Source of the DNA: Megamonas funiformis
Lineage (GTDB): Bacteria > Bacillota > Negativicutes > Selenomonadales > Selenomonadaceae
DNA: 64,000 bases
Assembly (NCBI RefSeq): GCF_010669225.1
Contig: NZ_CP048627.1
Span: forward strand, 372,001-436,000
Direction: 5' to 3'
This document shows positions 2,291-19,785 of the stretch, in pieces. The notes under the pieces are model-generated. The model ran no database searches, was not told the DNA's origin, and saw only the letters and a program-made list of their open reading frames with translations. The translations under genes and the position numbers were made by a program. How positions within the stretch are numbered: position 1 is the first letter of the stretch; each line of letters begins with the position of its first letter.

Positions 2291-3790
2291 TTATTCCTCA
2301 TTTAATAATAATGATTGCATGATTTGTTTGATATTTTGTGTATCAATGGCATAAAGATATTTACTAACATCATTAATAAGTTCAGGGTAAGTAGTTAAAT
2401 TTATGCCCCATAAATTAGTATCACCTAAAATTTCATTAACAACTACAGTGGCAGATTCTTGAGTTTTAGCATAATATTTCCATGCGGAAGTTAATTTTTG
2501 AATAGCATACTCATCATCAGTTAACTCACAAGTTGTACCATTATGTTCAATATAGAAATGATTTCCATTAATTTTAGAAGTATTATATAAAGTTATATAA
2601 GCGGCGAAACTAAAACTTAAATTTTGTGAGAATGTATGGAATTTATCATGATACTCTAAAATAGAAGGTAAAACTCTAGCTTTAAATTTTGATGTACAAT
2701 TAAGTAAAATACTTGATAATTGATGCTTGATAAATGGATTTTGGAAACGTTCAATTACAGCATTAGCAAAATCAATGAGCATTTCTTTATCCATAGAAAT
2801 TGACGGCAAAATATGATTATTTATGGTTTGTTGGGCAAATTTACCAGTGATTTGGTCATTCATCATTTCAGCTACAGTATTTAATCCAGCGAGAAAACTA
2901 GCTGGAACGTTAGCTGTATGCCCACCGTTTAAAAGGCGAACTTTGCGCTGGCGGTATTGGGAGATATCGTTTTCAATAACGACATTTAATCCACTATTTA
3001 ATAGTGGTAATTTTTCATTTAAACTAGTATCTCCTTCAATAGCTAAGAAATGGAATGGTTCACCACAAGCGATAAGTATATCATTATAACCTAATTCTTG
3101 GGTAAGGGTTTCAATTTCATCTTTAGGATAACCACTAACTACTCTATCTACTAAAGTATTGTAGAATTTATTGTGGGCATTAAGCCAAGTGATGAAGTCA
3201 GAAGGTAATTGCCATTGTTTACAGTATTTTAAGATTATACTTTTGAGTAATTGACCATTATTTTCTAATAATTCACAAGGAATAATATACATTCCTTTTG
3301 TTGCATCACCATGAAAATATTGATAGCGATGATAGAGAAATAAGGTTAATTTAGCAGGGAAAGAAAGTGGAGGTGCCATTGTGGCTGTATCTTGATTGTT
3401 ATAGGTAAGTCCCGCTTCAGTAGTATTGGAAAATACAATTTCGATTTCAGGGTTTTCAGCACATTTTAAAACATCTTGCCAATTAGTGTAAGGATTGATA
3501 CCACGACTGATAGAGGAGATGATTTCTTTAGTATTTACAGTTTGACCGTCTTGAATACCACGTAAAATAGTAGTAAATAATCCGTTTTGAGTATTTAATT
3601 TACCGACCACTTTGCCATGAGGTGTTGGTTGAATAGCAACTACACTACCATTGAATTTATTTTGATTATTTAATTGTTGAATAATCCAATCCATGAAGGC
3701 ACGAATAAAATTACCTTCGCCAAATTGAATGATTTTTTCAGGTCGTTTACAGATTAATTCAGGAAAATTATCAGCATTTAATTTATTCAT
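2291..3790 (-). CDS. uxaB: Tagaturonate reductase UxaB (altronate oxidoreductase)
   Basis: 499 residues, polyol/mannitol dehydrogenase family. It reduces D-tagaturonate to D-altronate with NADH. The N-terminal nucleotide-binding segment is GEGNFIRAF (24-32). The family catalytic signature K-x4-N-x2-H is visible as K283, N288 and H291 (KVRLLNGGH). It sits between the lgoD-like dehydrogenase, which should make tagaturonate, and uxaA, which consumes altronate. Gaps of 13 and 3 bases indicate one operon. Distinguished from uxuB by length and by its partner uxaA. Confidence 0.95.
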   Translation of the reverse strand: MNKLNADNFPELICKRPEKIIQFGEGNFIRAFMDWIIQQLNNQNKFNGSVVAIQPTPHGKVVGKLNTQNGLFTTILRGIQDGQTVNTKEIISSISRGINPYTNWQDVLKCAENPEIEIVFSNTTEAGLTYNNQDTATMAPPLSFPAKLTLFLYHRYQYFHGDATKGMYIIPCELLENNGQLLKSIILKYCKQWQLPSDFITWLNAHNKFYNTLVDRVVSGYPKDEIETLTQELGYNDILIACGEPFHFLAIEGDTSLNEKLPLLNSGLNVVIENDISQYRQRKVRLLNGGHTANVPASFLAGLNTVAEMMNDQITGKFAQQTINNHILPSISMDKEMLIDFANAVIERFQNPFIKHQLSSILLNCTSKFKARVLPSILEYHDKFHTFSQNLSFSFAAYITLYNTSKINGNHFYIEHNGTTCELTDDEYAIQKLTSAWKYYAKTQESATVVVNEILGDTNLWGINLTTYPELINDVSKYLYAIDTQNIKQIMQSLLLNEE

Positions 3791-3803
3791 TATTTACACC
3801 AAC

Positions 3804-4823
3804 TTAAAATTTGATAACAACTTTTAGCATTGAAGCAACATTTTTAGAGAAATCTTGGAAAGCTTTATCAGCCTCGTCTAAGTTATAAGTATTAGTAACG
3901 ATTTTTTCTAAATCAACTTTTCCAGATTTTACTAAATCGATTAATTCTAAGAAATCTTTTTTCAAAGCATTGCGAGAACCATAAACATTTAATTCTTTTT
4001 TCTGAAGCAAAGTGAAGTCAAATTCATGAGTGCGTTTACCTACACCTATTTGTACCATACGAGCACCAAATGCCGCAGCATCAATACAAGCTTGGAAGGT
4101 AGATGGTAGACCTACTGCTTCAATGGTTACATCAAAATAATTGCCATTAGTGATTTCTTCAACACGTTTAATAAAGTTTTCTGGGCTATCATTTAAAATA
4201 CCATCATCAAGACCGAAAGTTTCAATGGCATAATTCATTTTATTTTCTGCTACATCAGAAATATAAACTTTAGCTCCTTTAGCCTTAGCAGCTACAGCAG
4301 CAAGAACACCAATTGTACCAGCACCGATTACTAAAACTTTATCATTAGGCTGAATATTTGCTCGGCTGATACCATGATAGCTAATACAAAATGGTTCAAT
4401 AAGTGCTAATGTTTTTGCTGATAATCCTTTACCATCATAGATACGTTCAATAGGCATTGTTATATATTCAGAAAAAGCACCATCACGTTGTGCGCCCATG
4501 GTTTCATTACTAGTGCAACAGTTAACAAGACCACGTTGACAAGAATAACAGTGACCACAGTTAAAATATGGATTACAAGTTACAATCATACCAGGTTTTA
4601 AGTTGCGGTCATTATCACCAATTTCGATGATTTCTGCGGAAAATTCATGTCCAGGAATACGTGGATAGGAAGCATAAGCAAATGTTCCACGATATGTACC
4701 TAAATCACTACCACAAATTCCACCATATAATATTTTAAGTAAAGCTTCTCCTTGTTTACGTACAGGCATAGCTTGTTCAATAATTTCAACTTCACCAGGT
4801 TTATTAATAATAATGGTTTTCAC
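3804..4823 (-). CDS. Zn-dependent dehydrogenase, LgoD-like (L-galactonate to tagaturonate)
   Basis: 339 residues, medium-chain alcohol dehydrogenase. Catalytic zinc ligands are C37 and the GHE at 58-60; the structural zinc is held by C89, C92, C95 and C103; the Rossmann motif GAGTIG is near 167. Overall it resembles E. coli LgoD (L-galactonate 5-dehydrogenase), including the ALIEPF segment. As first gene of an operon with uxaB and uxaA, oxidation of L-galactonate to D-tagaturonate is the simplest role and completes a route to KDG. Substrate is inferred; another aldonate or polyol is possible. It is transcribed from the sigma-54 promoter at 4880-4864. Confidence 0.85.
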   Translation of the reverse strand: MKTIIINKPGEVEIIEQAMPVRKQGEALLKILYGGICGSDLGTYRGTFAYASYPRIPGHEFSAEIIEIGDNDRNLKPGMIVTCNPYFNCGHCYSCQRGLVNCCTSNETMGAQRDGAFSEYITMPIERIYDGKGLSAKTLALIEPFCISYHGISRANIQPNDKVLVIGAGTIGVLAAVAAKAKGAKVYISDVAENKMNYAIETFGLDDGILNDSPENFIKRVEEITNGNYFDVTIEAVGLPSTFQACIDAAAFGARMVQIGVGKRTHEFDFTLLQKKELNVYGSRNALKKDFLELIDLVKSGKVDLEKIVTNTYNLDEADKAFQDFSKNVASMLKVVIKF

Positions 4824-4863: not shown

Positions 4864-4880
4864 TGCAAATAGTATGCCAA
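4864..4880 (-). promoter_or_regulatory. Sigma-54 (-24/-12) promoter of lgoD-like-uxaB-uxaA
   Basis: Read on the minus strand the sequence is TTGGCATACTATTTGCA. It has the GG of the -24 element and the GC of the -12 element exactly 12 bases apart, as in the consensus TGGCAC-N5-TTGC. The start point would fall near 4853, leaving a 30-base leader before the ATG at 4823. A sigma-54 activator gene ends 131 bases upstream. Confidence 0.85.
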
Positions 4881-4962: not shown

Positions 4963-5000
4963 GAAATAGCTATATTTCATAAAAGAAATACAACTATTTC
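4963..5000. promoter_or_regulatory. Paired upstream activator sites for the sigma-54 regulator
   Basis: Two copies of the 16-bp dyad GAAATA-N4-TATTTC lie at 4963-4978 and 4985-5000. Their centres are 22 bp apart, two helical turns, and about 118 and 140 bp upstream of the predicted start point. That is the usual position for enhancer sites bound by AAA+ activators. They lie just after the activator's own stop codon. Confidence 0.75.
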
Positions 5001-5010
5001 ATATTTGAAA

Positions 5011-6849
5011 TTATTTAGTTTTTCGCCATAAGGTAACTTTGCTTATACCTAATAAATGGCAAATTTCATCATTAGAATAATTTTTATCAATTAATTGCTG
5101 AATAATAGTTTTTTCCATATTTTTTAAATTATTATTTATAGGTAAAGTTAACATAGAAGTGTTAGATGATGAAATATCATTAACATCATCTAATATATGT
5201 TTAACATCATCTAAAGAAATATCGTTTTTGTAAATAAAAGCAAGAACTTCTGCTACATTTTTTAATTCACGAATATTGCCATTCCAAGGATAATTAAGTA
5301 AATAACGATTTATTTCTGTAGCGAGATTTTTAGTTGATATTTGACCATATTTATTTAAATAATAATCCAATAATAAAGATATATCTTCTGTACGTTCACG
5401 TAATGGTGGTAGGGTAATGCGCAGTACATTGATACGATAATACAAATCTTGGCGGAATTTGCCTTCATGAATGAGTTGTTTAAGATTTTTATTAGTGGCA
5501 CAAATTAGACGAATATCTATAGGGAGTATTTTATCATCGCCAATACGCATGATTTCACGCTCTTGCAGTACACGAAGTAATCTACTTTGAATATCTAGTG
5601 GTAAATCTCCGATTTCATCAAGAAAAATAGTACCTGTATGAGCCATTTCAAATAGACCTTTTTTACCAGATTTTCTAGCGCCTGTGAATGCTCCTTCAAC
5701 ATATCCAAATAGTTCTGATTCAATAAGTGTTGGTGGGAGTGAAGCGCAGTTTACAGAAACAAATGGTTTGTCGTGGCGTTGACTGGCATTGTGAATACTT
5801 TGTGCCAGACCTTCTTTGCCTGTGCCTGTTTCACCATATATTAGGATATTAGAGTTAGATTGGGCAAATTGTTTAGCTGTAGTTAGAAGTTTTTCCATTT
5901 TGGGAGATTTATATAAAATATCGTTAAAGGTTTTTTTAGCATAAAGACCTTTTTGATAGAGTGCTACTTGAATTTTACGAGCAGTCTTTTCAATTAAATT
6001 TACTTTTTGGAAAATCAAGATTTGATTATTTAATTCATTATTAATATCTAAAGAAATAACATCTAAAAGTAATTTTTCATTATTGATATCTAAAATTTTG
6101 CCTTTATACATAGTTAGATAATTATTAAGTTGAGCAGTTCCTTTTTTTCCGGCAAGAACCGTATTATTATTAAGTATCTCTTTACCTAGTTTATTGTAAA
6201 ATATAGGTTGTTTATTTAGATTATAGACAATAATACCCTCGTTTATATTGTCTATAATGCTTTGCAATGTTTGCAAGCGAAGCTGTTTTTTCTGTTGTTT
6301 GTTGGCAAGGATTAATGCCTCATTAATGGCTTTCCTTATAGAGATGATATCAGATTCAATATATATACTGTTTTTAATATTATATTTTTTGGCAAGTTCA
6401 ACAGGCTTAATATCACCAATAATTCCATCAATATTTTTAGGTAATAGATTTTCAATAATTTTGGAAACATCTTCATCGTTTGAATAGGGACAAATTTTTA
6501 CACTTGTTTGGTGAATGTTAATAATAGAGCTTTCTGGTTCAATTATATTGTTATTAGAAATAATAGCGATATTTTTACAACCGGCTAGGTGAAGTTTTTC
6601 TATAGATTTTAAAATATTAGTAAGAGAAATACCAATATCAACTATAATTTTATTTGTGTATTTTTTTAAATCACGAACAGTACCACCACGGCTGATGATA
6701 ATAGATGTAGATTCTGATTGTTTGGCTATATTTACGGCAATTTTATTTTTAGCTACAATTAATGGTATAGATAAATTCATTTCTATCAAGGTTTTTTTGG
6801 CAATAGAAGCAATTTCTTCATGAGGGGCAATAAAAAGAATAGAATTCAT
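5011..6849 (-). CDS. Sigma-54-dependent activator (PrpR-N, PAS, AAA+, Fis HTH)
   Basis: 612 residues. Residues 1 to about 165 match the PrpR-N sensory fold (SRGGT at 53-57), followed by a PAS-like segment (about 195-290). The AAA+ domain has Walker A GETGTGKE (339-346), the sigma-54-contacting loop GAFTGA (386-391) and Walker B LDEIGD (410-415). A Fis-type helix-turn-helix closes the C-terminus (NYSNDEICHLLGISKVTLW). All elements needed to open a sigma-54 promoter are intact. It lies directly upstream of the lgoD-like operon with paired dyads and a -24/-12 promoter in between, so it very probably controls that operon. The inducer is unknown. Confidence 0.95.
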   Translation of the reverse strand: MNSILFIAPHEEIASIAKKTLIEMNLSIPLIVAKNKIAVNIAKQSESTSIIISRGGTVRDLKKYTNKIIVDIGISLTNILKSIEKLHLAGCKNIAIISNNNIIEPESSIINIHQTSVKICPYSNDEDVSKIIENLLPKNIDGIIGDIKPVELAKKYNIKNSIYIESDIISIRKAINEALILANKQQKKQLRLQTLQSIIDNINEGIIVYNLNKQPIFYNKLGKEILNNNTVLAGKKGTAQLNNYLTMYKGKILDINNEKLLLDVISLDINNELNNQILIFQKVNLIEKTARKIQVALYQKGLYAKKTFNDILYKSPKMEKLLTTAKQFAQSNSNILIYGETGTGKEGLAQSIHNASQRHDKPFVSVNCASLPPTLIESELFGYVEGAFTGARKSGKKGLFEMAHTGTIFLDEIGDLPLDIQSRLLRVLQEREIMRIGDDKILPIDIRLICATNKNLKQLIHEGKFRQDLYYRINVLRITLPPLRERTEDISLLLDYYLNKYGQISTKNLATEINRYLLNYPWNGNIRELKNVAEVLAFIYKNDISLDDVKHILDDVNDISSSNTSMLTLPINNNLKNMEKTIIQQLIDKNYSNDEICHLLGISKVTLWRKTK

Positions 6850-6911
6850 ATAAAAGCTCCTTTAATAAAATAAATATAATTATTATTTTAGCTAATTTAA
6901 CAAAATAAAAC

Positions 6912-6951
6912 AAAGGAGAATTAAGATTTTAATCTTAATTCTCCTTTATTT
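6912..6951 (-). terminator. Strong hairpin terminator after the LarA-like gene
   Basis: AAAGGAGAATTAAGATT (6912-6928) is perfectly complementary to 6931-6947, giving a 17-bp stem with T-rich sequence beyond it on either strand. It lies just downstream of the LarA-like stop and separates that operon from the sigma-54 activator gene. Confidence 0.8.
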
Positions 6952-6960
6952 TATTTATAT

Positions 6961-8223
6961 TTAAGGTAAACGCCAAAGTCCAGTAGCAGGATTTTTAATA
7001 AAATAAATTTCTTCACCATCAGGCATTATTTGCCATCCATCGGATAATTTATCAGGATTATATCTTTTTATAGCATCATCAATATTCATATAATTAAAGC
7101 CTACGCTTTCGATTTCTGTTTTACTTATTAACTTTGGATTAACAGCATAAGTAATAGAAAATCTATCATCAGAAGAACCGTGAATTAAGTGTGCGGGAAC
7201 CATTAATTGATTAGGAAATTTATTTTCATTATACAGTTTTAAAATTTTTGTTCTACCAATATAGCCATATTTACGAATGACTTCATCAACTTCAGCATTT
7301 TCTCCAAAACTGTGAATACCAGGAGCCAACAATAATAATTCTCCACCATCAGCAATAGCCATACGAGAACGATAAATACCTTTATTACCTACCCATGTGG
7401 TTTTTAATTCCATAGGATTTAGATAAGCAACAACTTTTTTTGCAGGTTTATTTAAATAGGTGATATTAAGTTTTTGTGATAATTGAACAGCTTGTTCGTA
7501 AGCTTGGCGGCTGGTACCAATGTATAAACCATTTAAATTAATAGTATCATCTTTATTTGTGGTAGTAACTGTTAGAATATATACTAGAGGTTTATTTTTT
7601 AAATAATGTTTTTGAGCATAATCAAAGACTTGACGTGCTGGTGCGTGGTCATTGCCAAGAGCTTTTTCAATACCACATATAGCACCGAGCATATGGCTTT
7701 TATTTATCATTTGGCGACCGCCAATACCTACAAAAATATTTTTACTATAATTAGCCATACCAACAACTTCATGTGGAACAACTTGTCCTATAGATAAAAT
7801 TAAATCATAATCGTCTTCCCAAAAATATTTATTAACTTCAACATCAATAGTATCGTTAAATAGATTATTAGATATTTTGGCTACAAAGTCTTTAGGAACT
7901 TCACCTATCTTTATAGTATCTGATTGCCATTTATGATGTAAAAAATTAGCTTTAGGAATATCACCATACATTTTAATGCGTTCTTCGTCATTAATCATTG
8001 CATGAGTACCTAATGCGGGCATAATATCAATTTTTACATTAGTAGATAATTTTTTATAAATTATTTGGGTAATATCACCAGCTTTAGAAAAACAACGTGT
8101 AAAATCTGGCGGAATAATTAGAATTTTTCTTAAATTATCATACTGCTGTAATAATTTATCTATAGCTGTTTCAATATCATAATTAGATAAATTTTTAGTA
8201 GATGATAAATAAATTTCATTCAT
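6961..8223 (-). CDS. LarA-family nickel-pincer racemase/epimerase homologue
   Basis: 420 residues (DUF2088/LarA fold). LarA enzymes use a nickel-pincer nucleotide to interconvert 2-hydroxyacid stereoisomers. Residues matching the LarA active site are present: R43 (PDFTR), H74 (GTHA), H151 (VVPHE), K161 (YSKN, equivalent to the cofactor-linked lysine) and H177. It therefore looks catalytically competent. The substrate is not lactate by necessity: family members act on malate, phenyllactate and sugar acids. Placed among aldonate genes and after a 2-hydroxyacid dehydrogenase, a C2 epimerase of an aldonate is the best inference. The cofactor genes larB, larC and larE are not in the window. Start ATG 8223 follows AAGGAGG. 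Confidence 0.85.
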   Translation of the reverse strand: MNEIYLSSTKNLSNYDIETAIDKLLQQYDNLRKILIIPPDFTRCFSKAGDITQIIYKKLSTNVKIDIMPALGTHAMINDEERIKMYGDIPKANFLHHKWQSDTIKIGEVPKDFVAKISNNLFNDTIDVEVNKYFWEDDYDLILSIGQVVPHEVVGMANYSKNIFVGIGGRQMINKSHMLGAICGIEKALGNDHAPARQVFDYAQKHYLKNKPLVYILTVTTTNKDDTINLNGLYIGTSRQAYEQAVQLSQKLNITYLNKPAKKVVAYLNPMELKTTWVGNKGIYRSRMAIADGGELLLLAPGIHSFGENAEVDEVIRKYGYIGRTKILKLYNENKFPNQLMVPAHLIHGSSDDRFSITYAVNPKLISKTEIESVGFNYMNIDDAIKRYNPDKLSDGWQIMPDGEEIYFIKNPATGLWRLP

Positions 8224-8246
8224 GGAATTTATACCTCCTTATTAGT

Positions 8247-8286
8247 AAATAGACTATCGATTAATAAGTTAATCGATAGTCTATTT
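8247..8286 (-). terminator. Perfect 18-bp hairpin between the 2-hydroxyacid dehydrogenase and LarA-like genes
   Basis: Positions 8247-8264 pair perfectly with 8269-8286 around a four-base loop. On the minus strand only a short T-run follows, so it may act as a partial terminator or as an mRNA processing and stability element that lowers LarA-like expression relative to the upstream gene. Confidence 0.65.
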
Positions 8287-8312
8287 ATTTAGTTACATTA
8301 AGAATAAGATTT

Positions 8313-9266
8313 TTATTTCAAATGATTTATTGGATAACGAACAGTATGTTCTTTTAAAAAGCTAACACATTCTTCTGCAACTTTACGTTTTAATTCTAAG
8401 GCAGCTTCTTCAGAATACCATGCCATATGTGGTGTAGCTAAATAATTATCTAAAGTAAATAATTTATTATTTGGCATCATAGGTTCTGTTGCTGCACAGT
8501 CAATGGCAGCTCCAGCTATTTCTTTATTTACAAGTGCATCATAAAGGTCATCTTCGTTAATAATTCCACCACGAGCTACATTAATGATAATAGCATTATT
8601 TTTCATCATTTTAAATGTTTCATCATTAAATAGGTTTTTATTTCCATCTGCTGGAATATGAAGGGATATGATATCAGATTCTTTGATAACATCTTCTAAA
8701 GATTTTATTTTTATAAATTTAGTATTTTCATTTTCTTTATAATATGGGTCATAACCGATAATATTGTATTCTAGAGCATGAGCTTTAATAGCAAAATTTC
8801 TGCCAATACGACCTAAACCAATAACACCAACTGTTTGTGTGGAAGCACGATGTATTGGAATAGAATGAGCATAGTCCCATTTTGTGCTTTTAGTGAAATT
8901 GTTCATAAGCACGATTTTTCTGGTCATAGCCATCATTAAAGCAATAGCATGGTCAGCAACTTCATTCATTCCATAATCGGGTACATTACAAATTTGAATA
9001 TTATGTTTAGTCGCTTCTTCTATATCAATAGTGTCAACACCTACACCATAACGAACGACCATTTTTAATTTTGGTAAAGCGTCCATAACTTTTTTTGTAA
9101 TATGTGCATATTGAACAATAAGAGCATCAGCATCTTGGCATTGAGAAATAACATCTTCTTCAGAATGGCATTGTTTTAGCTCAAAATCGATTTGAGCAGT
9201 ATTTAGAATTTTGGTTTCCATATCAATATTATCATGATCGCAATCAGTAATAATAACCTTCATCAT
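8313..9266 (-). CDS. NAD-dependent D-2-hydroxyacid dehydrogenase
   Basis: About 317 residues, D-isomer 2-hydroxyacid dehydrogenase family. The NAD-binding motif GLGRIGR is near residue 152 and the catalytic Arg, Glu and His appear in VARGGIINEDDL, ATEPMMPN and TPHMAW. It reversibly reduces a 2-keto acid. I chose ATG 9266 because GGAG lies five bases upstream; a GTG six bases earlier overlaps that site. It is the first gene of a unit with the LarA-like gene. A 2-ketoaldonate reductase would fit, but phosphoglycerate or hydroxypyruvate activity cannot be excluded from sequence. Confidence 0.9.
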   Translation of the reverse strand: MMKVIITDCDHDNIDMETKILNTAQIDFELKQCHSEEDVISQCQDADALIVQYAHITKKVMDALPKLKMVVRYGVGVDTIDIEEATKHNIQICNVPDYGMNEVADHAIALMMAMTRKIVLMNNFTKSTKWDYAHSIPIHRASTQTVGVIGLGRIGRNFAIKAHALEYNIIGYDPYYKENENTKFIKIKSLEDVIKESDIISLHIPADGNKNLFNDETFKMMKNNAIIINVARGGIINEDDLYDALVNKEIAGAAIDCAATEPMMPNNKLFTLDNYLATPHMAWYSEEAALELKRKVAEECVSFLKEHTVRYPINHLK

Positions 9267-9300
9267 AATCACTCCAATTCATCATATGTATTATAAAAAT

Positions 9301-9329
9301 ATAATAAAATATTAAAATAGAAAAGTCAA
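9301..9329 (-). promoter_or_regulatory. Sigma-70-type promoter of the 2-hydroxyacid dehydrogenase operon
   Basis: On the minus strand TTGACT (9329-9324) and TATTAT (9306-9301) are separated by 17 bases. The start codon is 35 bases downstream of the -10 element. Confidence 0.65.
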
Positions 9330-9504: not shown

Positions 9505-9568
9505 TCAAAATTGATATGATGAATTATAGAAAATCGTTAGATGATTTTAGAGGTGGGAGGATAAACTA

Positions 9569-10510
9569 ATGCAAAGTGGATTAATTTTAGTTGGTGAGCC
9601 TATGGGATTATTGATTGCCCAAACTGAAGGCAGTTTAAATAATGTTAGTAGTTATGATTTAGCAGTAGCAGGTGCAGAATTTAATGTAGCAATAGGTACA
9701 GCAAGATTAGAACATAAAGTTACATATATGACTAAATTGGGTGATGACCCTTTTGGAAAACGTATTACTACAGTATTAAAAGATAATAAAATTGGTGATG
9801 AATTTATATCTTTTTCTAAAGAACGAGCTACTGGTTTTATGTTGAAAGGTAGAACTAGTGTAGGAGATCCAGAAATTTTTTATTTTAGAAAAAATTCTGC
9901 TGCATCAACATTAAATGAAGATGATGTAGAAAAAATAGATTTATCAAATTATGGTTATATTCATTTGACTGGTATTTTACCAGCTTTATCAGAAGATACT
10001 AAGAAAGCTACATTTTCTTTAATTAAAAAGGCTAAAAAACAAGGTTTATTTATAAGTTTTGATCCTAATTTACGTCCTCAATTATGGAAATCTCAAGAAG
10101 AAATGATACAAACTATTAATGAATTAGCATCATATGCAGATTTAGTTTTACCAGGGCAGGCAGAAGGAAAAATATTAATTGGCACAGATGATGAAAAAGA
10201 GATTAATGATTTTTATTTACAAAATGGAGCTTCTATTTGTGTAACTAAATGTGGAAGTAAAGGGGCATACGTATCTACTAAAGATGGAGAAGGTTATATG
10301 GTAGAAGGTTATAAAGTGGAAAAAGTTGTTGATACTGTGGGGGCTGGTGATGGATTTGCAACAGGCGTAGTTACTGGTTTAATGGAAGGATTAACTTTAT
10401 CGGAGGCAGTTAAACGAGGTACAGCAATTGGGGCAATTCAGGTTATGAGTCGTGGCGATAATGAAGGTTTACCAACTAGACAAGAGTTAAAAGATTTTAT
10501 GAATAAATAA
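9569..10510 (+). CDS. kdgK: 2-keto-3-deoxygluconate kinase KdgK
   Basis: 313 residues, PfkB/ribokinase family. It phosphorylates KDG to KDPG. The family C-terminal signature DTVGAGDGFATG (255-266) carries the catalytic base D261, and the N-terminal glycine-rich substrate loop AGAEFNVA lies at 34-41. GGTGGGAGG precedes the ATG. Followed 20 bases later by the KDPG aldolase gene, so kinase and aldolase are made together. It is the common sink for both the UxaA and UxuA branches in this window. Confidence 0.93.
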   Translation: MQSGLILVGEPMGLLIAQTEGSLNNVSSYDLAVAGAEFNVAIGTARLEHKVTYMTKLGDDPFGKRITTVLKDNKIGDEFISFSKERATGFMLKGRTSVGDPEIFYFRKNSAASTLNEDDVEKIDLSNYGYIHLTGILPALSEDTKKATFSLIKKAKKQGLFISFDPNLRPQLWKSQEEMIQTINELASYADLVLPGQAEGKILIGTDDEKEINDFYLQNGASICVTKCGSKGAYVSTKDGEGYMVEGYKVEKVVDTVGAGDGFATGVVTGLMEGLTLSEAVKRGTAIGAIQVMSRGDNEGLPTRQELKDFMNK

Positions 10511-10530: not shown

Positions 10531-11502
10531 ATGATTAGTAAGAATATACAAAAAATTTTTGATATAGGTTTAGTACCTTTAATTGTATTAGATGATGTAG
10601 AAGATGCTGTTCCTTTAGGAAAAGCTTTAGTTGCTGGTGGTATACCTGTAGCAGAAGTTACTTTCCGTACAGAGGCAGGTGGTGCTGTTATAGAAAAGAT
10701 GACTCAAGAAGTACCTGAAATTCTTGTAGGTGCGGGTACTGTTCATGATGTGGAACATGCTAAAGAAGCTGTAGAAAAAGGTGCTAAATTTATTGTGACA
10801 CCAGGATTTAATTTAGATGTAGTCAAATGGTGTGTAGATAATAATATAGATGTAATTCCAGGAACTGTAGCACCTAGTGATATTGAAGCTGCAATGAATT
10901 TAGGATTATCAGTATGTAAATTTTTCCCAGCAGAAGCATATGGTGGAGTAAAAACTTTAAAAGCTTTAGCTGGTCCTTATGCTGATATAAAATTTATGCC
11001 TACTGGTGGAGTCAGCGAAAATAATATGAATGAATATTTAACATTATCTAATGTAGGAGCTATTGGTGGAAGTTTTATGACTCCTTCAAAATTAGTTAAA
11101 GAGAAAAAATGGAATGAAATTACTGAGGTTTGCAAAGCTATTGTGAAAAAAATGTTAGGTTTTGAATTGGCACATGTAGGTATTAATACAAAAGATGCTA
11201 ATGAAGCTAATAATATAGCTAATACTTTAGGAAATGTATTTTTACAAGAAAAAAGAGAAACTTCTGGTGCATATTTTAGTGGTGATGTAGCAGAGGTAGT
11301 AAAAGGCTCGTTTTTAGGCGAACATGGCCATATTTGCATTGATACAATTGATATGCCACGAACTATTGCATATTTGAAACGTATTGGCGTGGAATTCAAT
11401 AATGAAACTTGGGCTAAAGATGACAAGGGGAATATTATTAACGTTTATTTAAAAGATAGTATAGGTGGTTTTGCTATACATGTTAGAAGAAAAGCTCAGT
11501 AA
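10531..11502 (+). CDS. KDPG aldolase fused to a C-terminal VOC-like domain
   Basis: 323 residues; ordinary KDPG aldolases have about 210. Residues 1-210 are a complete KdgA/Eda barrel with catalytic E42, R46 and Schiff-base K130 (CKFFPAE), so KDPG cleavage to pyruvate and glyceraldehyde 3-phosphate is expected. Residues 211-323 look like a vicinal-oxygen-chelate (glyoxalase-like) half: HVGINT, HICIDT and FAIHV strands supply possible metal ligands H215, H277 and H317. The role of this extension is unknown; it could bind a substrate, a metal or an oligomer partner. One continuous frame, no sign of frameshift. Confidence 0.9.
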   Translation: MISKNIQKIFDIGLVPLIVLDDVEDAVPLGKALVAGGIPVAEVTFRTEAGGAVIEKMTQEVPEILVGAGTVHDVEHAKEAVEKGAKFIVTPGFNLDVVKWCVDNNIDVIPGTVAPSDIEAAMNLGLSVCKFFPAEAYGGVKTLKALAGPYADIKFMPTGGVSENNMNEYLTLSNVGAIGGSFMTPSKLVKEKKWNEITEVCKAIVKKMLGFELAHVGINTKDANEANNIANTLGNVFLQEKRETSGAYFSGDVAEVVKGSFLGEHGHICIDTIDMPRTIAYLKRIGVEFNNETWAKDDKGNIINVYLKDSIGGFAIHVRRKAQ

Positions 11503-14637: not shown

Positions 14638-15717
14638 ATGAGAATGACTTTTCGTTGGTATGGTAAGAAAGATGATAAAATCACATTACAACAAATTCAA
14701 CAAATCCCAGGTATGGATGGAATTGTAGGAGCTTTATTTGATGTACCAGTAGGGGAAGTATGGCCATTAGAAGATTTATTATCAATAAAAGAAGATGCTA
14801 ATAAATATAATTTAGATTTTAAAGATATCGAAAGTATAAATGTTCATGAAGATATTAAATTAGGGTTACCATCAAGAGATAAATATATAGAAAATTATAT
14901 TATATCTTTAAGAAATGCAGCTAAAGCAGGTATTAAAGTAGTTTGTTATAATTTTATGCCTATTTTTGATTGGACAAGAACAGATTTAGCATTACCTTTA
15001 TATGATGGTTCTACAGCTTTAGCATACGATTATCGTTTAATAGCTGGAAAAAGTCCTCAAGATATGGCAAGAGAAATATTAGATAATTCTAATGGTTTTG
15101 TACTTCCAGGTTGGGAACCAGATAGATTAGAAGAACTATCAAAATTATTTGAACAATATGAAGGTATGGATGAAGATAGATTAAGAAAAAATTTAGAGTA
15201 TTTCTTAAAAGCTGTTGTACCTGTAGCAGAAGAATGTAATATTAAAATGGGAATTCATCCAGATGATCCACCAATTTCTGTATTTGGTTTACCTAGAATT
15301 GTAAAAAATGAAGAAGATTTAGATAAAATTGTTAATATGGTAGATAGTGAAAGTAATGGATTAACCATTTGTACAGGTTCTTTAGGATCTAATTTAAAAA
15401 ATGATATTCCACATATTATTCGTAAATTTGGTGCTAAAAAAAGAATTGCATTTATGCATGTAAGAAATATTCAAGTACATGAACCTTGGGTGTTTAACGA
15501 AGTAGCACATAAATCTAAACATGGGTCTTTAGATATGTTTGAAATTATGAAAGCATTATATGATGTAGATTTTGATGGACCAATTAGACCAGATCATGGA
15601 CGAATGATTTGGAATGAAGAAGGTAGACCAGGATATGGTTTATATGATAGAGCATTGGGTGCAAATTATCTTTGTGGTCTTTGGGATTCGATTAATAGAA
15701 TATACGGTGCAAAATAG
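14638..15717 (+). CDS. uxuA: Mannonate dehydratase UxuA
   Basis: 359 residues, xylose-isomerase-like TIM barrel. It dehydrates D-mannonate to KDG and needs a divalent metal. Family hallmarks are the N-terminus MTFRWYGKKDD, CYNFMPIFDWTRT near 102-114, HPDDPP near 203-208 and RPDHGRM near 318. AAGGAGA precedes the ATG. First gene of the uxuA-dehydrogenase-MFS-uxuB operon; it converges with UxaA at KDG. Confidence 0.96.
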   Translation: MRMTFRWYGKKDDKITLQQIQQIPGMDGIVGALFDVPVGEVWPLEDLLSIKEDANKYNLDFKDIESINVHEDIKLGLPSRDKYIENYIISLRNAAKAGIKVVCYNFMPIFDWTRTDLALPLYDGSTALAYDYRLIAGKSPQDMAREILDNSNGFVLPGWEPDRLEELSKLFEQYEGMDEDRLRKNLEYFLKAVVPVAEECNIKMGIHPDDPPISVFGLPRIVKNEEDLDKIVNMVDSESNGLTICTGSLGSNLKNDIPHIIRKFGAKKRIAFMHVRNIQVHEPWVFNEVAHKSKHGSLDMFEIMKALYDVDFDGPIRPDHGRMIWNEEGRPGYGLYDRALGANYLCGLWDSINRIYGAK

Positions 15718-15792: not shown

Positions 15793-16812
15793 ATGAAAGC
15801 AGCAGTTGTTTATGGTATAAATGATTTAAGATTAGAAGAAATAGAGAAACCACAAATTGAAAGAGATGATCAAATTTTAGTAAAAATAAAAGCAGTAGGA
15901 ATATGTGGCTCAGATATACATATACTTCATGGTGCAAATCCATTTGCTACTTATCCGAGAATTATGGGGCATAAAATGGTCGGAGAAGTGGAAGCAGTAG
16001 GTGATAATGTTAAAAATATAGCGATTGGCGATCATATTGTAGTAGAACCGATTACTTACTGTGGAAAATGTTATGCTTGTAGAAAAGGAATGCCTAATGT
16101 TTGCCAACAATTAAAGGTATCGGGAGTTCATGTAGATGGTGGTATGAGGGAATATATAGTAATTGCTGAAAAACAGGCGCATAAAATAAAAAAAGATATT
16201 CCATGGACTACAGCTGTTTTAGCAGAGCCATATACGATTGCAGGAAATGTAACAACAAGAACAAATATTAGTGCAGGAGATAAAGTCGTTATACAAGGTG
16301 CAGGTCCTATTGGAATTACTATATTACGTATGGCAAAAGTAAAGGGAGCAACAGTTTTAGTTACTGATATGGTTGATGAAAAATTAGCTTTTGCTAAAGA
16401 AAATGGTGCTGATATGGTGGTAAATCCAAGTAAAGAAAATTTAATTGAGGCTGTAAAAACATGGACTGATGGAGAAATGGCTAATGTGGTAATTGATGCA
16501 GCTTGTACACCTAAAACTTTTGAAATATGTTTTGATTTAGTTTCCATTGCAGGAACAATTGGTGTATTAGGAATGGATGAAAAGCCATCAAACATACCAC
16601 AAATTCATTTTATGAAAAAACAATTAACAGTAGTTGGTTCAAGATTACAGGCTTATCAGTTTGCTCCAGTAATTAGATTAATGGAAGCTGGCTATTTGAA
16701 AGATGATGCACTTGTTACACATAAATTTAAATTTTCAGATATTAAAGAAGCTTTTAAATTAATAGAAGAAAATCCAGAAAAAGTAAAAAAAGCAGTACTT
16801 ATTTTCGAATAA
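15793..16812 (+). CDS. Zn-dependent dehydrogenase, RspB-like (L-gulonate to fructuronate)
   Basis: 339 residues, medium-chain dehydrogenase. Catalytic C38 and H60 and the structural zinc cysteines C90, C93, C96 and C104 are present; Rossmann motif GAGPIG near 169. Overall resemblance is to E. coli RspB, an L-gulonate 5-dehydrogenase, including GVHVDGG and the C-terminal SRLQAYQF region. Between uxuA and uxuB, producing D-fructuronate for UxuB is the natural role. Odd point: the usual GHE motif reads GHK (K61), which removes a conserved second-shell glutamate. Substrate is inferred. Confidence 0.83.
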   Translation: MKAAVVYGINDLRLEEIEKPQIERDDQILVKIKAVGICGSDIHILHGANPFATYPRIMGHKMVGEVEAVGDNVKNIAIGDHIVVEPITYCGKCYACRKGMPNVCQQLKVSGVHVDGGMREYIVIAEKQAHKIKKDIPWTTAVLAEPYTIAGNVTTRTNISAGDKVVIQGAGPIGITILRMAKVKGATVLVTDMVDEKLAFAKENGADMVVNPSKENLIEAVKTWTDGEMANVVIDAACTPKTFEICFDLVSIAGTIGVLGMDEKPSNIPQIHFMKKQLTVVGSRLQAYQFAPVIRLMEAGYLKDDALVTHKFKFSDIKEAFKLIEENPEKVKKAVLIFE

Positions 16813-18177: not shown

Positions 18178-19785
18178 ATGTATTTTAATGAAGAATGTTT
18201 AACGTCACAAGAATTAGTAAATAAAACAAATATAAAATTACCTTTATTTAATAGAAGACAAGTTAAAGAAAATACTAAAAAAAATCCTAAATGGATTCAT
18301 TTTGGACCAGGAAATATTTTTCGTGCTTTTATAGCTAATTTACAACAATCCTTATTAGATAGGGGAGAAGATGATTGTGGTATTATCGCAGTAGCACCAA
18401 ATAATAGTGAAATAATAGATAAAATATATCGACCACATGATAATTTAAGCTTATTAGTGACTATGAATGCTGATGGAAGTAATGAAAAAAAGATTATTGC
18501 TAGTATTACTGAAAGTTTAACTTGCGATATGCAAAATAAAGTGGATTGGGAAAGGATAGAGAGTATTTGTATAGCAGGAAGTTTACAAATAATGAGTTTT
18601 ACAATTACTGAAAAAGGTTATAAGTTAAAAAAAGATAATGGGGAATATCTAGAGTCTGTAAAACAAGATTTACAAATGGGACCAAGCCAAGTAAAAAGTT
18701 TTATGGGGAAGATTACTTCATTATTGTATAAGCGCTATTTAAATGGAGCAAAACCAGTATCTTTAGTTAGTATGGATAACTGTTCACATAATGGGATAGT
18801 ATTGCATGATGCAATATTAGATATTGCTAAAATTTGGATAGATAGAAATTTAGTAAAAAGAGAATTTCAACAATATCTTGAAAAAAATATAACATATCCA
18901 TGTACAATGATTGATAAAATCACACCATATCCTTCAGAAAAAATACAAGAAGAATTGAAACAAGATGGTTTTAATGATATGGATTTTGTTGTTAGTAGCA
19001 GAGGAAGCAAATATGCACCATTTGTAAATGCAGAGAAAACAGAATATCTTGTTGTTGAAGATTCTTTTATTAATGGTCGTCCAGCATTAGAAAAAACAGG
19101 TGTGATTTTTACTGATCGAGCTACAGTAGATAAAGTGGAAAAAATGAAAGTATGTACTTGCTTAAATCCCTTACATACAGCATTGGCTATTTTTGGCTGT
19201 TTATTAGGTTATACCTCTATTTCTAGTGAGATGAATAGTCCATTATTAAGAAAATTAGTAGAAAAAATTGGTTATGATGAAGGTATGAAAGTAGTAATAG
19301 ATCCAGGTGTAATTTTACCAAAAGAATTTATTGAAAAGTGTATAAATGAACGTTTTCCTAATTCAGCAATTCCAGATACACCACAACGTATAGCTTGTGA
19401 TACATCACAAAAAGTAGCTATTCGTTTTGGCGAAACAATTAAAGCATATATGAAATCTAATACTTTAAAATCAGAAGATTTAGTATATATACCATTGACA
19501 ATAGCTGCTTGGTGTAGATATTTATTAGGAATAGATGATAAAGGAAATGAATTTTCTATAAGCCCTGATCCATTATTAGAAGTACTACAAAGTAAATTAG
19601 GAAATATAAATTTGGGAGATAAAATAAATGTCCATAATATATTAGAAGATATATTAAGTGATAGTAAAATTTTTGGTGTAAATTTATATGATGCTGGTAT
19701 TGGAGAAAAAATAGAAGGATATTTTCTTGAAATGATTTCTAAAAAAAATGGAGTAGAAATTACTTTAAATAAATATTTAAAATAG
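18178..19785 (+). CDS. uxuB: Fructuronate reductase UxuB (mannitol dehydrogenase family)
   Basis: 535 residues. It reduces D-fructuronate to D-mannonate, the substrate of UxuA. The nucleotide-binding start is HFGPGNIFRAF (41-51). The catalytic Lys-Asn-His cluster is seen in KVCTCLNPLH, with one more residue between K and N than in UxaB, as in the longer Firmicutes UxuB type. Last gene of the uxu operon, followed by a terminator. Mannitol dehydrogenase activity is the alternative, but the neighbours argue for mannonate. Confidence 0.92.
   Translation: MYFNEECLTSQELVNKTNIKLPLFNRRQVKENTKKNPKWIHFGPGNIFRAFIANLQQSLLDRGEDDCGIIAVAPNNSEIIDKIYRPHDNLSLLVTMNADGSNEKKIIASITESLTCDMQNKVDWERIESICIAGSLQIMSFTITEKGYKLKKDNGEYLESVKQDLQMGPSQVKSFMGKITSLLYKRYLNGAKPVSLVSMDNCSHNGIVLHDAILDIAKIWIDRNLVKREFQQYLEKNITYPCTMIDKITPYPSEKIQEELKQDGFNDMDFVVSSRGSKYAPFVNAEKTEYLVVEDSFINGRPALEKTGVIFTDRATVDKVEKMKVCTCLNPLHTALAIFGCLLGYTSISSEMNSPLLRKLVEKIGYDEGMKVVIDPGVILPKEFIEKCINERFPNSAIPDTPQRIACDTSQKVAIRFGETIKAYMKSNTLKSEDLVYIPLTIAAWCRYLLGIDDKGNEFSISPDPLLEVLQSKLGNINLGDKINVHNILEDILSDSKIFGVNLYDAGIGEKIEGYFLEMISKKNGVEITLNKYLK

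Follow-up and report, generated by a model that had tools for sequence, protein, structure and literature searches.

A group-18 LarA homologue predicted to be a nickel-pincer-dependent hexonate 2-epimerase in an aldonate locus of Megamonas funiformis

LarA proteins have been divided into 25 groups, and D-gluconate 2-epimerase activity was demonstrated in 2020 for two of these, groups 19 and 20; for group 18, epimerisation of a hexonate was likewise proposed (PMC7583248). GntE1 of Corynebacterium glutamicum (LarAH19) has been shown to epimerise mannonate to gluconate; the KM of the tested group 19 member for mannonate is very high (PMC7583248), so that its natural substrate is uncertain and groups with the gluconate epimerase signature can prefer other hexonates. 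For GntE2 of Thermotoga maritima (LarAH20, structure 4NAR), a gluconate 2-epimerase, the link from mannonate to gluconate was shown in vitro (PMC7583248), and PMC6978723 cites Rodionova et al. 2012 for the proposal of this link in T. maritima. At four specificity positions, equivalent to F175, F176, W358 and T359 in LarA1, the usual residues of gluconate epimerases are E, V, A and H (PMC11770544). Group 18 is itself catalogued as the family model NF052594, 'nickel-dependent putative hexonate epimerase', and the literature cited here contains no assayed member of it.

The window analysed here, a stretch of 64,000 nucleotides from M. funiformis, contains a LarA-superfamily gene (6961-8223, minus strand, 420 amino acids) and, 89 nt upstream on the same strand, the ORF of a D-2-hydroxyacid dehydrogenase (2-HADH; 8313-9272, 319 amino acids, ATG at 9266). 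Both had been named in a preliminary description of this DNA and are borne out by ORF coordinates and Pfam domains. The LarA protein has the Pfam domain Lar_N and matches NF052594 over its full length (residues 9-418) with 614.6 bits against a cut-off of 500, while the models for lactate racemase (NF033504, 37.3 bits, cut-off 460) and malate racemase (NF052593, 56.8 against 500; NF052595, 45.8 against 462) are missed by a wide margin. Among solved structures, 4NAR is the nearest (E=2e-33). Seven residues, D40, R43, H74, H151, K161, H177 and K281, do not vary across 24 aligned group-18 proteins that are 45-70% identical to the window protein; five of them (R43, H74, H151, K161 and H177) had been placed at exactly these positions before. 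The seven comprise the NPN-binding set (R43, K161, H177) and the catalytic set (D40, H74, H151, K281), and correspond to the residues listed for LarA, Mar2 and GntE2 (PMC7583248).

The specificity positions point in the same direction. E152, V153, A344 and H345 of the LarA protein reproduce the E-V-A-H signature of D-gluconate 2-epimerases, the equivalence of A344/H345 with W358/T359 being based on the signature pattern and the position of the loop rather than on structural superposition. All 24 group-18 proteins have E152, A344 and H345, and 23 of them have V153, whereas other residues occupy these positions in 18 further LarA proteins that were sampled from the same class. The protein also shares the EV loop, W277 and A344 that mark group 18, and differs from this group only in its neighbours, as a PrpR-type regulator, a UxaAB operon and a 2-HADH are not found next to most of its relatives. 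With GntE2 it has in common the catalytic set, the E following the catalytic His and a uronate/gluconate context, but GntE2 belongs to group 20, is distant in sequence and carries S instead of V as the second loop residue. With GntE1 it shares the signature class and the uronic-acid context, although that enzyme, too, belongs to a different group. The type of enzyme is therefore already published, and the window protein is a further member of group 18; the suggestion that the system was not a described one does not hold for the enzyme.

An active LarA homologue would carry a nickel-pincer cofactor made by the products of larB, larC and larE, and the preliminary description had named a lack of these genes as the observation that would speak against its proposal. 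A search of the 2.57-Mb source genome recovered all of them, with larB (294 bits), larE (283 bits) and larC1 (213 bits) each found once above cut-off, and with a larC2-like ORF between larB and larE that was identified from position and sequence only. The larC gene is thus split, its larC2-like part lying with larB and larE and larC1 more than 800 kb away. Since the window's LarA protein is the single Lar_N match in the whole genome, it is probably the sole client of the cofactor. This adds to the nickel-pincer enzymes a well-supported member that is accompanied by a complete cofactor set. On the basis of the family model, the signature, the cofactor genes and the gene context in relatives, it can be assigned as a hexonate C2 epimerase with a probability of roughly 0.95. 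The earlier proposal of an aldonate C2 epimerase is well supported in this respect.

Family scans of the surroundings revealed UxaA-, UxaB-, UxuA-, KdgK- and KDPG-aldolase-family genes, in agreement with the earlier view that the neighbours degrade sugar acids. On the 3' side of larA follow a PrpR/PrdR-type sigma-54-dependent regulator (5011-6849, minus strand) and an operon on the same strand (4823 to 800) of a Zn-dependent MDR dehydrogenase (3804-4823), a tagaturonate reductase of the UxaB family (2291-3790; NF002969, 622 bits, cut-off 359) and an altronate/galactarate dehydratase of the UxaA family (800-2287). The Zn dehydrogenase is a candidate L-galactonate/L-gulonate 5-dehydrogenase, its best NCBIfam model (NF007489) scoring below cut-off. 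On the divergent side, all on the plus strand where coordinates are given, lie a PfkB-family 2-keto-3-deoxygluconate (KDG) kinase (KdgK, 9569-10510), a KDPG aldolase that has an additional domain at its C-terminus (10531-11502), an MFS transporter and two GntR regulators, and beyond these an operon of mannonate dehydratase UxuA (14638-15717; TIGR00695, 376 bits, cut-off 199.55), a second Zn-dependent MDR dehydrogenase (15793-16812), an MFS gene and a UxuB-like oxidoreductase of the mannitol dehydrogenase family (18178-19785).

Two terminator-like hairpins, one directly 3' of larA (6906-6953, minus strand), between the dehydrogenase-larA unit and the regulator, and one following the regulator (4963-5000), point to separate transcription units. 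The only exact sigma-54 (-24/-12) promoter match within the 64 kb, TGGCATACTATTTGC (4865-4879, minus strand), is located 42 nt before the start of the first Zn dehydrogenase, and thus the PrpR-type regulator probably drives the UxaAB operon and not the dehydrogenase-larA unit. Upstream of the dehydrogenase a sigma-70-like promoter candidate (TTGACT-17-TATTAT, 9301-9329, minus strand) is present, in a region where promoter-like matches are no more frequent than in shuffled sequence.

Uronate isomerase UxaC (PF02614) was not detected in the source genome by a search that was positive in 7 of 14 control genomes, despite the presence of UxaA-, UxaB-, UxuA- and UxuB-like genes. As UxaC is undetected, these Uxa/Uxu enzymes probably act on aldonates that enter the cell as such, unless an unrelated isomerase exists; this would mean that in M. 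funiformis they serve aldonates and not uronates, and it lends support to the label 'aldonate locus' that the region had been given. Candidate entry acids are L-galactonate and L-gulonate, for example, which the Zn dehydrogenases would oxidise. Neither gluconokinase nor Gnd was found near larA in the window. Elsewhere in the source genome, at about 2.40 Mb, gluconokinase, a permease and Gnd are clustered together with an RpiR regulator.

Group-18 larA genes are sparse, exceeding the cut-off in 4 of 380 genomes of the class and in 12 of 397 genomes of one other family, and their surroundings narrow the substrate. Within 6 kb of larA in 23 relatives, the scans identified mannonate oxidoreductase-type genes (UxuB-like or SDR) in 11, Zn dehydrogenases in 11, Gnd in 9 and UxuA in 6, and gluconokinase is also among the sugar-acid genes found there; at one locus (L056) gluconokinase is close to larA together with homologues of larB, larC and larE. 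Two arrangements dominate: an operon of Zn dehydrogenase, UxuA, UxuB and larA, and a cluster of an SDR mannonate oxidoreductase and larA with a PfkB kinase and Gnd. The simplest pair common to both is mannonate and gluconate, at which a mannonate dehydratase context and a kinase/6-phosphogluconate dehydrogenase context would meet, and the gene context of the relatives therefore supports C2 epimerisation of D-gluconate and D-mannonate. Gluconate/mannonate is accordingly the favoured main substrate pair, though clearly less assured than the assignment as a hexonate epimerase; the very high KM of the group 19 enzyme for mannonate and the lack of gluconokinase and Gnd next to larA in the window count against it.

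In the proposed mechanism, proton-coupled hydride transfer would invert C2 of the hexonate, which passes through a short-lived 2-keto form; D-gluconate and D-mannonate are the pair most likely to be interconverted in nature. By this step gluconate could enter the mannonate dehydratase/KDG/KDPG route of the window; alternatively, mannonate could be channelled into the gluconokinase/6-phosphogluconate dehydrogenase route, whose genes lie elsewhere in the genome. That one pathway can take in a second aldonate through the epimerase is the best reading of the role of the LarA protein.

Alternatively, the natural pair could be L-gulonate/L-idonate or L-galactonate/L-talonate (or altronate/allonate), and the epimerase would then feed a Zn dehydrogenase that delivers fructuronate or tagaturonate to UxuB/UxuA or UxaB/UxaA. 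This is a possible but less probable choice of substrate. A Zn dehydrogenase is the closest partner of larA in many relatives and would fit the first two of these pairs as well; 11 of the 23 relatives have one near larA, and in L014, L018 and L021 it adjoins larA with neither UxuA nor UxuB within 6 kb. The window itself encodes two such enzymes. Homologues of the second share with the UxuB/SDR oxidoreductases the first place among operon partners of group-18 larA. Undetected UxaC implies that aldonates, or another isomerase, must feed UxaAB and UxuAB. Against these pairs speaks the complete GntE signature of the LarA protein. In addition, only one of the nine relatives with Gnd near larA has a Zn dehydrogenase too, and four of the nine also have, within 6 kb, a gene of the mannonate oxidoreductase type; this again indicates mannonate and gluconate.

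The partner of larA had been described as a D-2-hydroxyacid dehydrogenase, and this identity is confirmed by both Pfam domains above their cut-offs (PF00389, 103 bits; PF02826, 183 bits) and by the Arg, Glu and His motifs NVARGG, ATEP and TPHMAW, which were read directly. The protein (8313-9266, minus strand) resembles NAD-type dehydrogenases of the PGDH/glyoxylate reductase/CtBP-like kind, with phosphoglycerate dehydrogenase, glyoxylate reductase and CtBP as its nearest solved structures, and it reached no curated equivalog cut-off in NCBIfam. Its best relative among the examined loci is the 2-HADH of L056 (43% identity), which exceeds the SerA-like paralogue of its own genome (37%). A 2-HADH lies within 6 kb of larA in 2 of 23 other group-18 loci, compared with about 0.5 expected by chance, an estimate based on five full-length 2-HADHs per genome. 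Only the one in L056 is clearly related; the other, directly upstream of larA in L074, is 30% identical. Because two loci are so near to chance, the association of larA with a 2-HADH is not established: within the window the pairing is real, but the counts do not support a conserved module. A comparison within the genus (G136) gave no match to the neighbouring aldolase and hence no syntenic site.

Perhaps the dehydrogenase and LarA nevertheless form one unit in the window, by which 2-ketogluconate would be converted to gluconate, mannonate and finally KDG, a doubtful proposition that is compatible with gluconate/mannonate epimerisation. The dehydrogenase would then play an auxiliary part, plausibly by supplying the 2R-aldonate through reduction of a 2-ketoaldonate, for the epimerase to invert. 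Such a role as 2-ketoaldonate reductase is chemically sensible but speculative. The two genes adjoin on one strand with a terminator-like hairpin only after larA, the related 2-HADH in L056 and the upstream position in L074 fit a joint function, and the stereochemistry also agrees, as gluconate is the 2R and mannonate the 2S acid. These points are offset by the scarcity of the pairing in relatives, the low identity in L074, the fact that the dehydrogenase is less close to 2-ketogluconate reductase than to phosphoglycerate dehydrogenase and glyoxylate reductase, and a near-perfect inverted repeat (8246-8287) without a clear T-run in the 89-nt spacer between the genes, which may permit read-through or act in attenuation. 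Cooperation of the dehydrogenase with the LarA epimerase on 2-ketoaldonates is thus rather unlikely. Still a little less likely is a full two-enzyme entry module in an anaerobe in which UxaC was not detected, leading from 2-ketogluconate or another 2-keto acid via the 2R- and the 2S-aldonate to dehydration by UxuA or UxaA; if true, no aldonate kinase would be needed.

That the LarA protein is a racemase of lactate, malate or another small 2-hydroxyacid that lies in a sugar-acid locus by chance is highly improbable. It does share Lar_N and the catalytic residues with such enzymes, but the family scores and the GntE-type specificity residues argue against lactate or malate racemase, and most relatives stand in a sugar-acid context as well.

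Some further features of the region and of the genome were observed. At its C-terminus the KDPG aldolase is extended by about 120 residues that by eye resemble a glyoxalase-type domain and for which the scans found no Pfam or NCBIfam domain of their own. The 12-mer ATATGATGAATT occurs in two exact copies (9276-9287 and 9514-9525) in the intergenic region between the divergent dehydrogenase and KdgK genes, facing both, and nowhere else exactly in the window; considered as a possible shared operator, it is not present upstream of uxuA and is given here as an observation only. Finally, an FGGY-kinase-like gene near 2.511 Mb of the source genome (L095, 2620-3860) appears to be split over frames and is probably a pseudogene.
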